The notes beneath the pieces were generated by a model. It was not told the DNA's origin, made no database searches, and saw only the letters and a program-made list of their open reading frames with translations. DNA of 43,840 nt, taken from Pantanalinema sp. Lineage in GTDB: Bacteria > Cyanobacteriota > Sericytochromatia > S15B-MN24 > UBA4093. Within the stretch, counting starts at the first letter, position 1; every line of letters begins with the position of its first letter. Positions 12,650 to 41,975 of this stretch are shown here, one piece after another. The DNA lies in the NCBI GenBank assembly GCA_036704125.1, contig DATNQI010000067.1, positions 1 to 43,840 on the forward strand, in the 5' to 3' direction. A program made the translations under genes and the position numbers.

Positions 12650-13687
12650 ATGAACATCAACAAACCGAACGCCAACCCCGCTGCTGCGGGGCCGCGCCGC
12701 GCCGCGCCCGCCGAGCAGCCCAAGGCCGCTGATCACGCGAAGCCCGCCAAGCCGGCCCCCGCCATGGACTCCTTCAAGGGGACGCCCGATCAGTACGTGA
12801 TCCGCCCCGGGGACACCCTCGCCAAGATCGCGGGGCGCTTCGGCGTTTCCCAGCAGACCCTGCTCGAGCTCAACCCCGAGCTCACCCGGGGCCGCAAGCG
12901 CACCTCCACGGGCGATCGCATCTTCGCCGGCGAGACCATCCGCCTCAAGCCCGCGCCCTCCGAGGCCGACGGCCTGAAGGACCAGCTCAAGAAGGCCCAG
13001 GAGGCCAGCGAGGCGGCCCAGAAGGCGCACGAAGCGGCCCAGCAAGTCTCCGGGGCCAAGGTGGCCCTGCTCCAGATGCCGCAGCCCAGCGCGTGGCGCA
13101 GCCTCGGCGAGGCCAAGAAGCACGTGGCCGACGCCGATGCGCGCCTGGCGAAGATCCCGGCCGGGGACGCCGAGCGCCCCACCTTCGAGGGTATCGTCAA
13201 GAACGCCCACGAGGCCTTCGAGGGGATGACGGGCCGCCTGAGCGACCTGGCGGCTCGCAACAAGACCAAGGTGGTCCAGGAGACCGGCGAGGACGGCAAG
13301 CCCGTCGAGCGCAAGGTGGACCGGGAGCTGGACGACGAGACCCTGGCCCTCTCCACCTCGGACGTGGCCCTGGCCGATTCCACCCAGAAGGCCAAGCTCA
13401 TCCGCAACCTCTACGACGGCTACACCGGGGGTGACGAGCAGGACAAGATCCTGGCGATCCTGGCGGATGCCAAGGGTCAGGGGCAGCTCGACGAGACGCT
13501 CGGCGCCCTCAAGGCCGAGAAGACCAAGACCCTGTTCATCCCGTCGACGGTCTTCGAGAACCTGCCCGGCCTCTTCACCGATTCGCGGCTCGACAAGCTC
13601 GAGCAGATCGTGAAGGGCAACGCCGAGCTGGAGGGGGCCATCGCCCGCACCCGCGAGCAGCGCGAGCGCCAGAATTCCGGTTACTAA
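12650..13687 (+). CDS. LysM-domain protein without signal peptide (shorter paralog)
   Basis: ATG 12650 follows CAGGAGAG. The 345-residue protein has a LysM domain at about residues 47-102 (QYVIRPGDTLAKIAGRFGVSQQTLLELNPEL ... IFAGETIRLK), then an Ala/Lys/Gln coiled coil (about 108-145). Its C-terminal helical domain (about 235-335) shares the pattern LIRNLYDGYTGGDEQDKILAILADAKGQGQLDE with the equivalent region of the upstream gene. It also lacks a signal peptide. The 62-base gap and shared architecture indicate an operon born by duplication, ended by a strong terminator. Function unknown; a structural or secreted accessory role is only a guess. Confidence 0.85.
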   Translation: MNINKPNANPAAAGPRRAAPAEQPKAADHAKPAKPAPAMDSFKGTPDQYVIRPGDTLAKIAGRFGVSQQTLLELNPELTRGRKRTSTGDRIFAGETIRLKPAPSEADGLKDQLKKAQEASEAAQKAHEAAQQVSGAKVALLQMPQPSAWRSLGEAKKHVADADARLAKIPAGDAERPTFEGIVKNAHEAFEGMTGRLSDLAARNKTKVVQETGEDGKPVERKVDRELDDETLALSTSDVALADSTQKAKLIRNLYDGYTGGDEQDKILAILADAKGQGQLDETLGALKAEKTKTLFIPSTVFENLPGLFTDSRLDKLEQIVKGNAELEGAIARTREQRERQNSGY

Positions 13688-38495: not shown

Positions 38496-40157
38496 CTACA
38501 GCATCCCGACGAAGAGCTCGACCAGCTCGGGATTGAACTGGGTGCCCGCGCAGCGGCGGATCTCCGCGATCGCCTCCGCCTGCTCCATGCTCGGCCCGAA
38601 GGCGTACCCTTGGCGCGTGAGCGCGTCGTAGGTGTCGCACAGAGCGAGGATCTGGGCGCCGAGGGGGATGTCGCCGGCGCTGAGGCCCTCGGGGTAGCCC
38701 CTGCCGTCCCAGCGCTCGTGGTGGTAGAGCACCGCCTCGCGCAGCCCGGCGAAGGTGCTGAAGCGCGAGAGGATGGTGACGCCGGCCTGGGAGTGGGACT
38801 TCATCTGCTCCCACTCGTGGTCGTCGAGGCCCGAGGTCTTGAGCAGCACCGAGTCGGGGAGCGCGAGCATCCCCACGTCGTGCAGCATCCCCGCGATCAT
38901 CAGAGCCTCTTGCTTGTCCGCGGCCAGCCCCAGGGCCTTGCCCATGCGCAGCGCAAGGTCCCCCACCGCCTCCGAGTGGCCGTGCAGCATGGGGCTGCGC
39001 AGCTCGATGGCCGCCGAGAGGGCGCGGGCGAGCGCCAGGAACATCTCCTGCGAGCCCTTGCGCGGTGCGCCGATGGCGTTCACCGCCTCGGCCGCCGGTC
39101 CCGTGGCGCGCACGACGCGGTTGCGGCCGGCGTTCTTCGCGGCGTAGAGGGCCGCGTCCGCCCGATTGATGAGCTCCTTGGGGGTGGTGACGTCGGGGGT
39201 CAGCGAGGCGAGGCCGATGGAGGCCGTGACCTTGAGGCTGCGCGCGGGGGAGATCGGGATCTCCTTGTCGGCGAGGGTCAGCCGGAGGCGCTCGGCGATC
39301 GCGAAGGCCTCGTCCTCGGCCGTCTGGGGCAGGATGATGGTGAACTCCTCGCCGCCGTAGCGCGCGGCGAGGTCCGTGGGCTTCAGGCTCTCCTTGAGCA
39401 TGGCGGCGGCTTCCTTGAGCACCATGTCACCCGCCTGGTGGCCGTGGTTGTCGTTGATCGACTTGAAGTGGTCCAGGTCGACCATCAAGAGGCTCAGGGG
39501 CGATGGGGTCTCGAGGCTCTCGCTGAGGTCGTCGGCCAGCCGCTCCTGGAAGTAGGCATGGGTCGCCAGGCCCGTGAGGCCGTCGGTGATGGCCTGGTGC
39601 TGCGCCGCCTCGTAGAGGTCGTAGAGGTTCAGGGCCATCTCCATCTGGCGCTCGTGCGCGTCGTTGGCCCGGGACTTCGCCTCCTCCGCCTCGCGCCGGG
39701 CCGCGAGGTAGCCGGCGCGATCGCGGGCGAAGCGCGCGAGCAGCAGGAGGCGAGCGTCGAGTTCGGTCTGGTCGGACGGCCGCGCGGCCAGGCGCAGGGC
39801 CAGGGTGATTTGGGCTTCCTCGTGCACGCACAGGCGCAGGAAGATCCACGCGCCATGCGGTGCCAGCGGGATCAGGCAGGCGGTGTCGAGCGGGATGTCG
39901 AGCGGCACCGCCGGCAGGTCCCCCGAACCCTCCGGGCTCACGGCGAGCGGCTCGCCGGCCACGTCGAACACGGCCCCCGCGTCGGATCCCGAGGCCCTCA
40001 TGGCCTGCTCGAGCAGCACGGAAGGCAGTTTGCTCAAGGAGGTCGCGTGGGTGAAGGCTTCATGGGCATCCGCCAGGGCCCTGAACGGTCCGACGCCGTG
40101 GTTCTGGCTGGAGGGGCCGGCGCCCAGCTCGCTGGGGCCGTGAGTGTTCGCGTTCAT
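38496..40157 (-). CDS. GGDEF + HD-GYP cyclic-di-GMP signalling protein
   Basis: A 553-residue cytosolic protein; ATG 40157 follows AGAGGG. Residues about 25-150 look like a GAF-type sensor. A helix (about 150-188) ends with HERQMEMALNLYDLYEAAQHQ, a motif shared with the divergent gene. The GGDEF domain (189-350) starts ITDGLTGL and has active-site GGEEF at 268-272, so diguanylate cyclase activity is plausible. Its inhibitory-site position reads KPTD instead of RxxD. The HD-GYP domain (about 370-553) has HGH (392-394), HD (426-427) and HHERWDGRGYP (479-489), so phosphodiesterase activity is also plausible. It may therefore both make and break c-di-GMP under sensor control. Confidence 0.93.
   Translation of the reverse strand: MNANTHGPSELGAGPSSQNHGVGPFRALADAHEAFTHATSLSKLPSVLLEQAMRASGSDAGAVFDVAGEPLAVSPEGSGDLPAVPLDIPLDTACLIPLAPHGAWIFLRLCVHEEAQITLALRLAARPSDQTELDARLLLLARFARDRAGYLAARREAEEAKSRANDAHERQMEMALNLYDLYEAAQHQAITDGLTGLATHAYFQERLADDLSESLETPSPLSLLMVDLDHFKSINDNHGHQAGDMVLKEAAAMLKESLKPTDLAARYGGEEFTIILPQTAEDEAFAIAERLRLTLADKEIPISPARSLKVTASIGLASLTPDVTTPKELINRADAALYAAKNAGRNRVVRATGPAAEAVNAIGAPRKGSQEMFLALARALSAAIELRSPMLHGHSEAVGDLALRMGKALGLAADKQEALMIAGMLHDVGMLALPDSVLLKTSGLDDHEWEQMKSHSQAGVTILSRFSTFAGLREAVLYHHERWDGRGYPEGLSAGDIPLGAQILALCDTYDALTRQGYAFGPSMEQAEAIAEIRRCAGTQFNPELVELFVGML
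39594..39635 (-). repeat. Single LYDLYE motif in the GGDEF/HD-GYP gene
   Basis: Codons 175-188 encode ALNLYDLYEAAQHQ, matching the repeat unit of the divergent gene at 40750-41037. It lies exactly at the helix leading into the GGDEF domain. Confidence 0.85.
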
Positions 40158-40329: not shown

Positions 40330-41052
40330 ATGCAATGGGCCGTCTACACCACGTTCGCGCGTCGCCTGGCCGATGATGTCTCCCGGGAGACGCTGTCGGC
40401 CTTGATCGTCGCCACAGCCGTCGAGGTGGCGGATGCGGATGACGGTTGCCTGCACGCGCCGGGCCTGCGGGTTCCGATCCTGGCGATGGACCGCAAGGGG
40501 GCCTCCTGCGAGCCCTTCGGTCTCGAGGAAGCCTCCGGGACGGTCGTGCCGCTCGCCGCCCACCAGGATGCGACCGGCCTCTGGGTGCAGATCCTTCCCT
40601 TGCGGGGCTTCTCCGGGATCCTCGGCGTGCTCGCGCTGCGGCGCAGGGAGCCGTTCGCTCCCGAGGCGGCCGAAGCCCTCGAGCTGCTCGTCGCCATGGC
40701 CGCGATGGCCTGCGACTTTCGCCGCACCCAGGATCGGCACGAGCGTCAGCTGGACGCCGCGCTGGGTCTCTACGACGTGTACGCGCAGACCCAGCACCAG
40801 CTGGTCGCCGAGGAGCAGAAGGTGGAGGCGGCCCTTGGCCTCTACGACCTCTACGAGCAGGCCCAGCTTCAGCTGAGGGCAGAGGAGCAGAAGGTGGAGG
40901 CGGCCCTCGGCCTCTACGACCTCTACGAGGAATCGCAGAACCAGCTGAGGGCCGAGCAGGCCAAGCTCGAGGCGGCGCTCGGCCTCTACGACCTCTACGA
41001 GGCAGCCCAGAACCAGCTCATCGAACAGGAGAAGGACAAGCAGGGGCTCTGA
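40330..41052 (+). CDS. GAF-like sensor with four 24-residue LYDLYE repeats
   Basis: A 240-residue soluble protein; ATG 40330 follows AAGGAG. Residues 1-128 resemble a divergent GAF-type domain (LPLRGFSGILGVLALRRREPF, then a long helix). HERQ leads into four consecutive 24-residue repeats: 141-164, 165-188, 189-212 and 213-236. The core of each is AALGLYD-[LV]-Y-x3-Q-x-QL followed by an acidic/basic linker such as AEEQK. The unit is not a multiple of seven, so it is not a simple canonical coiled coil. The same core occurs once in the divergent GGDEF/HD-GYP protein, whose sensor half is also similar. No enzymatic domain follows, so I infer a scaffold, partner or antagonist role. First gene of a three-gene operon. 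Confidence 0.85.
   Translation: MQWAVYTTFARRLADDVSRETLSALIVATAVEVADADDGCLHAPGLRVPILAMDRKGASCEPFGLEEASGTVVPLAAHQDATGLWVQILPLRGFSGILGVLALRRREPFAPEAAEALELLVAMAAMACDFRRTQDRHERQLDAALGLYDVYAQTQHQLVAEEQKVEAALGLYDLYEQAQLQLRAEEQKVEAALGLYDLYEESQNQLRAEQAKLEAALGLYDLYEAAQNQLIEQEKDKQGL
40750..41037 (+). repeat. Four 72-bp tandem repeats (LYDLYE units)
   Basis: The units start at 40750, 40822, 40894 and 40966, each exactly 72 bases. Units 2 and 3 share long identical stretches, with AAGGTGGAGGCGGCCCT occurring in both, differing there by third-position changes. This implies recent duplication in frame. Confidence 0.92.
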
Positions 41053-41589: not shown

Positions 41590-41975
41590 TGCCCGTGAGC
41601 ATCGAGCCGTATACCACGGACAAGACCACCATCAGGGTCGTGAACGGTGAAGACGGCGGTGTCGTTCTCAAGTTTGCTGGTACCATCGACCACATGAACC
41701 CCGGCGAGTTCCTGGACCCCTTCCTGGACAACGTCCATACCCAGGTCATCGCGCACGGCATTCCCAGGGTCGAGGCGGACTTCACCGAGCTCGGCTTCCT
41801 CAACTCCAGCGGCATCAAGTCGCTGCTCAAGTGGATCATGAAGCAGATGGAGCTCGCCGAGGACAAGCGCTACCCCATCAAGATCCTCTACTCGCGCAAG
41901 ATCACCTGGCAGCAGACCAGCCTCAAGGCCATCACCTACCTCTCGAAGGGCTCGGTGGTCGCCGAGTCGCGCTAA
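41589..41975 (+). CDS. STAS-like antagonist (Slr1659-type)
   Basis: A 128-residue protein whose ATG overlaps the stop of the ATPase gene. The fold pattern is that of anti-sigma factor antagonists: strands around VVLKFAGTIDHMNPGEF and RVEADFTELGFLNSSGIKSLLKWIM. The LNSSGIKSL segment sits where SpoIIAA-type proteins carry the phosphorylatable serine (S-G). The C-terminus ends YPIKILYSRKITWQQTSLKAI and TYLSKGSVVAE. It should be the partner of the ATPase. The name Slr1659-type is from recall, not a search. Confidence 0.8.
   Translation: MPVSIEPYTTDKTTIRVVNGEDGGVVLKFAGTIDHMNPGEFLDPFLDNVHTQVIAHGIPRVEADFTELGFLNSSGIKSLLKWIMKQMELAEDKRYPIKILYSRKITWQQTSLKAITYLSKGSVVAESR

Follow-up and report, generated by a model that had tools for sequence, protein, structure and literature searches.

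Architecture of the locus

The window, by which we mean the whole stretch of 43,840 nucleotides analysed, carries a codirectional set of genes on the plus strand facing away from a cyclase gene on the opposite strand. P0001 (40330–41052, +), a repeat protein of 240 amino acids, is followed after a gap of 39 bases by P0002 (41092–41589, +), whose stop codon overlaps the start codon of P0004 (41589–41975, +) in the sequence TAATG. The divergent gene encodes P0003 (38496–40157, −), a GGDEF/HD-GYP protein recognized by Pfam with E-values of 5e-48 for GGDEF and 3e-34 for HD_5.

Neither Pfam nor NCBIfam recognizes an output domain in P0001, and the protein ends six residues past its last repeat unit, in agreement with an earlier note on this DNA that had described an output-less protein stopping after its repeats. 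Structure prediction of the repeat protein alone, which the same note had proposed as a check, yielded a GAF-like fold in residues 1–110 (40330–40659, +) and one unbroken helix of 127 residues, 111–237 (40660–41040, +), with a pLDDT mostly between 85 and 94 in the AF2 model. The GAF-like domain claimed to precede the repeats is backed by its fold, as the best Foldseek matches of the model are the GAF domains of DevS/DosT (E 1e-4), while the Pfam GAF match (E 0.023) stays under the cut-off. Weak matches of the helix to DUF6272 and SiaB were put down to coiled-coil noise.

The helix contains four units of 24 codons: RQLDAALGLYDVYAQTQHQLVAEE (40744–40815, +, starting at residue 139), QKVEAALGLYDLYEQAQLQLRAEE (40816–40887, +, residue 163), QKVEAALGLYDLYEESQNQLRAEQ (40888–40959, +, residue 187) and AKLEAALGLYDLYEAAQNQLIEQE (40960–41031, +, residue 211). 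The array was thus correctly recognized before, in a frame two codons off from the units at 40744–41031 given here. Tandem Repeats Finder reports it at 40768–41018 with a period of 72 and a score of 318, and the self-identity of P0001 at an offset of 24 residues is 71%, compared to a maximum of 34% reached over all offsets in 5000 shuffles. Units 2–4 share AALGLYDLYE, and unit 1 is divergent (GLYDVYA). Elsewhere in the window, two further short tandem repeats occur, one with a 21-base unit at 12994–13042 and one with a 15-base unit at 530–575.

It had also been argued that such a repeat is not an ordinary coiled coil. Indeed, 24 is not a multiple of the heptad, and the array lacks the 3.5-residue hydrophobic period of a heptad coiled coil. 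Its hydrophobicity period peaks at 3.43 residues per turn, which equals 24/7, and a coiled coil accommodates this value as three heptads plus three residues; the array can therefore form an overwound coiled coil, presumably as a dimer. Over residues 28–162, P0001 resembles the N-terminal part and the stalk of a GGDEF/HD-GYP protein from a related genome, G002 (32% identity, E 1.5e-13), so that it probably originated from a cyclase of this type.

A stalk motif shared with the cyclase

A single copy of the LYDLYE motif occurs in P0003 (ALNLYDLYEAAQHQ, from residue 175; 39579–39650, −; profile E 5.9e-15). It lies on the N-terminal side of the catalytic domain, with 12 residues from the Asp of LYDLYE to the Asp of DGLTGL, the start of GGDEF, just where the earlier note had placed it. 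A profile built from the 24-residue unit (A4) and run against 386 genomes of the phylum had no matches other than P0001 and four cyclase stalks, except for a single 10-residue match at chance level (E 0.014). Five of the profile copies belong to the window (P0001 and P0003) and three to the cyclases of genomes G005, G001 and G002. As the profile finds no unrelated protein bar that 10-residue match, LYDLYE is a specific motif, as had been proposed, and a common helical linker is excluded among these 386 genomes.

A strict-pattern search of 84,980 species genomes, a set that possibly leaves out the window's own genome and a pattern that degenerate arrays would escape, returned 19 loci, none of them a true tandem array; apart from a few matches due to chance, they are LYELYEL runs encoded by microsatellites. 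No tandem LYDLYE array was found in a viral collection, a protein search of genome contigs with P0001 gave no match, and a PDB sequence search with it gave nothing useful. Within the genomes searched we found neither a related strain carrying P0001 nor a relative of it with tandem units, and a decoy role for such an array, as proposed below, thus rests on one protein.

A predicted partner-switching set next to the repeat protein

P0002 is an HATPase of the slr1658 superfamily (NF047703, E 1.5e-17) and a predicted STAS kinase. It also matches HATPase_c_2 (E 0.0014), does not match DUF6272, and carries the N-box HELLENAVKY, whose E52-L-L-E-N56 is invariant in the kinase alignment A2. P0004 is a STAS protein of the slr1659 superfamily (NF047705, E 1.1e-11). 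With 63.6 and 45 bits, respectively, neither protein reaches the curated cut-off of 100; at the level of sequence comparison, the E-values show relatedness to the two superfamilies despite these scores.

The AF2 model of P0004 (pLDDT 90) provides a further view on its affiliation. Among solved folds, SiaC chains come closest to it (Z 12.6–12.9), in a near tie with the STAS protein RsfB (11.8). The segment FLNSSGIK takes the position of N67-T68-S69-x-I71 in SiaC (SiaC residues from PMC8457831), and its N72-S73-S74 (41802–41810, +) contains the predicted phosphosite S73. P0004 has no match to the SiaC family PF09345 at E ≤ 1, and just one of its seven relatives matches that family, at E 0.066 only. 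Searching with a profile of the STAS set returned weak STAS matches only, and a PDB sequence search with P0004 nothing useful.

The hallmarks of partner switching are recognizable in the sequences, namely a predicted GHKL-type kinase with an N-box adjoining a STAS protein with a predicted phospho-acceptor, S73. P0002, P0004 and the divergent P0003 form a predicted partner-switching set of kinase, STAS messenger and target enzyme, and it is because of these gene surroundings that we read P0001 as part of a STAS circuit. A membrane PP2C of the SiaA type is absent from the window operon. The closest one is encoded at an unlinked position (G000:C70, L096 3789–5357) and is a candidate phosphatase for the circuit; its PP2C domain is 70% identical to the PP2C in the kinase–STAS operon of genome G010.

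Variation among relatives of the class

Eighteen genomes of the class allow the circuit to be followed in relatives. Five of them encode STAS proteins with a conserved NSSG, and the kinase is found in exactly these five. In G005 the genes are ordered kinase, STAS and then a GGDEF/HD-GYP cyclase with one ALRLYDLYEEAQNQ motif. In G001 the order is cyclase–STAS; the cyclase is a GAF-GGDEF protein bearing ALGLYDLYHAAVGE, and the two genes overlap. The GAF-GGDEF-HD-GYP protein of G002 carries ALGLYDLFEETINQ, and next to it the contig end truncates a SiaA-like membrane protein of which only the first part is present; the homologue of this membrane protein in G010 has PP2C at its C-terminal end, and kinase and STAS genes come next.

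The STAS protein of G001 (L021 6380–6745, G001:C58) has lost the NSS phosphosite, and no slr1658-like kinase was found in this 97% complete genome, so that kinase and phosphosite are missing together. The neighbouring cyclase retains its stalk motif, and this single case fits a STAS–cyclase contact that no longer needs control by phosphorylation. G003 (L017 5571–7274, G003:C84) has an intact kinase–STAS–cyclase operon and a STAS protein very like that of G005, and the stalk motif of its GGDEF/HD-GYP protein is decayed (MELSGLTLENLGSEAQ); in this kept operon the motif is therefore either not strictly needed or has diverged. Finally, neither STAS nor kinase was found in the motif-bearing G002, whose contig ends inside the gene adjoining the cyclase. 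Across the 18 genomes, co-occurrence of motif and STAS is too sparse for significance alone. A different arrangement is seen at G007:C92 (L019), where one slr1659-like STAS gene is flanked by two slr1658-like kinases.

Tandem stalk motifs in Cyanobacteria

A similar gene neighbourhood exists in Cyanobacteria, where a stalk motif, DLEILLETxTEHSDxVExEL, was initially spotted beside slr1659 genes. An artificial tandem of this motif, searched in 117 genomes, matched in four (G115, G024, G059 and G077), and in all four slr1658–slr1659 lies directly upstream of a protein with two or three stalk motifs (loci L061, L066, L069 and L071). Only G059 and G077 count as independent, because G024 and G115 supplied the search motif. 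Representative proteins of these loci pass the slr1658 and slr1659 cut-offs, and the tandem-motif proteins end in GGDEF, class III cyclase or PAS domains. Tandem stalk motifs beside the slr1659 STAS family are thus a recurring pattern.

The motifs are spaced by 25 or 53 residues. These spacings and the 32 residues of SiaD all correspond to 7n+4, and the 24 residues of the window correspond to 7n+3. When LYDLYE was aligned against the cyanobacterial motif, no signal emerged. The second stalk-motif protein of G024 has one motif. On contig G024:C1 (L066 184–1371; L072), two PAS proteins with stalk motifs and no evident catalytic output are encoded near slr1658/slr1659, and they are possible further examples of output-less docking proteins.

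A repeat array as a probable sink for the STAS messenger

The gene neighbours suggest that P0001 sequesters the small protein by which the cyclase would be activated. The earlier note, which does not mention the two genes downstream of P0001, had proposed that P0001 pairs with or titrates the cyclase through matching helices. We keep the idea of titration, and the motif does link P0001 to the cyclase; on our analysis the likely partner of LYDLYE, and hence the protein being titrated, would be the STAS protein P0004 and not the cyclase helix. In our main reading, to which we assign a probability of about 0.55, P0004 would dock on the motif and P0001 would compete for it with four sites.

The window would accordingly contain a SiaABCD-like partner-switching circuit for c-di-GMP. 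P0004 would be the messenger, P0002 its likely kinase acting on S73, and the unlinked PP2C a candidate phosphatase. Unphosphorylated P0004 would dock on the LYDLYE helix of dimeric P0003 and set its activity. P0001 would have descended from such a cyclase, with the GAF-like domain and the stalk kept and GGDEF absent; as it carries the docking unit four times, each chain may provide as many as four sites, and its most likely function would be to compete for free P0004 as a sink. The sink would set the level of P0004 needed for engaging the cyclase, and the GAF domain of P0001 could gate it. If true, a partner-switching messenger titrated by a repeat array built from its own target would be a simple genetic way of setting a threshold. 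A broader principle, put forward tentatively, is that partner-switching STAS messengers dock on a short helical motif that can be multiplied in tandem, here copied onto an output-less sink, with the repeat number tuning the threshold of the c-di-GMP switch.

Direct pairing of the P0001 stalk with P0003, in which a heterodimeric coiled coil would lead to cyclase dimers unable to work, appears unlikely to us. It would build on the GAF–stalk layout common to both proteins, on stalk sequences that are close ahead of GGDEF (AHERQMEMALNLYDLYEAAQHQ versus RHERQLDAALGLYDVYAQTQHQ), and on diguanylate cyclases acting as dimers. One unit would suffice for such pairing, however, and not four; outside the repeats P0001 and P0003 are just 27% identical, with the G002 cyclase closer to P0001; and the codirectional STAS and kinase genes are left unexplained.

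Somewhat less probable still is that P0001 serves as a scaffold or sensor gathering P0004 by the kinase or cyclase, such that a signal at the GAF domain controls phosphorylation or delivery of P0004. P0001 keeps its GAF domain and shares an operon with the kinase, and cyanobacterial multi-site stalks are joined to sensors, for example in PAS proteins, but a kinase-binding part is not seen in P0001. The observations made here are compatible with sink and scaffold alike.

The codon usage of the units informs us on whether the array matters at all. Among the six unit pairs of P0001, the codon differences at the nine positions of the core AALGLYD(L/V)Y number 15 synonymous and 3 nonsynonymous, compared to 6 and 47 at the other fifteen positions; purifying selection acts on the core. 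Although the same array occurs in no relative among the genomes searched and the GGDEF part is gone, this core conservation, together with an open reading frame, a ribosome-binding-like AGGAG ahead of it and the position of P0001 as first in a compact gene set, makes a role-less decaying cyclase fragment with repeats grown by slippage quite improbable.

Comparison with known systems

Our search of the open-access literature, which covers few subscription journals, turned up no functional study of slr1658/slr1659, nor any publication that deals with the stalk motif or with partner-switching decoys. The best-studied relative of the window circuit is the SiaC–SiaD pair, part of the SiaABCD system of Pseudomonas aeruginosa, which consists of the PP2C SiaA, the kinase SiaB, SiaC of the family DUF1987 and the diguanylate cyclase SiaD. 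As described in PMC8457831, SiaC activates SiaD via two repeated stalk motifs, each motif of the dimeric enzyme binding two SiaC molecules, and phosphorylation of SiaC at T68 by SiaB abolishes binding to SiaD. The window likewise has a predicted kinase, a putative messenger of STAS fold and, in P0003, a helical stalk motif on a GGDEF protein; the fold of P0004 is nearest to SiaC (Z 12.9, with RsfB about 1 lower), and its N-[ST]-S site is at the same place. The two systems differ in that P0002 is an slr1658-type HATPase whereas SiaB belongs to DUF6272, and in that P0004 lacks a match to the SiaC Pfam model. Moreover, P0003 contains GAF-like and HD-GYP domains, its stalk bears a single motif where SiaD has two, and the window adds the output-less P0001 with four motifs at a spacing of 24 residues, in contrast to 32 in SiaD.

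The resemblance of the LYDLYE motif to that of SiaD is not significant by itself. The SiaD motif RLEKVARISDRYQQMMRDL, whose second copy lies 32 residues upstream, aligns without gaps with KVEAALGLYDLYEQAQLQL at the best register, and 60 of 500 column shuffles score equally well; sequence likeness between LYDLYE and the SiaD motif therefore proves nothing alone.

A partner-switching STAS protein acting on a diguanylate cyclase is also found in HsbA–HsbD and BgrV–BgrR, both named in the excerpt of PMC8457831, whose description of them contains no multi-site decoy. The slr1658/slr1659 regulators of Cyanobacteria (NF047703, NF047705) share with the window the adjacent HATPase and STAS genes and, in the cases seen, a following protein with tandem stalk motifs. 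They differ in their motif, which is not LYDLYE, and the window proteins score under the curated cut-offs of these families. If the proposed docking is true, the slr1658/slr1659 proteins of Cyanobacteria gain a concrete job, namely docking on the tandem stalk motifs encoded by the neighbouring gene.
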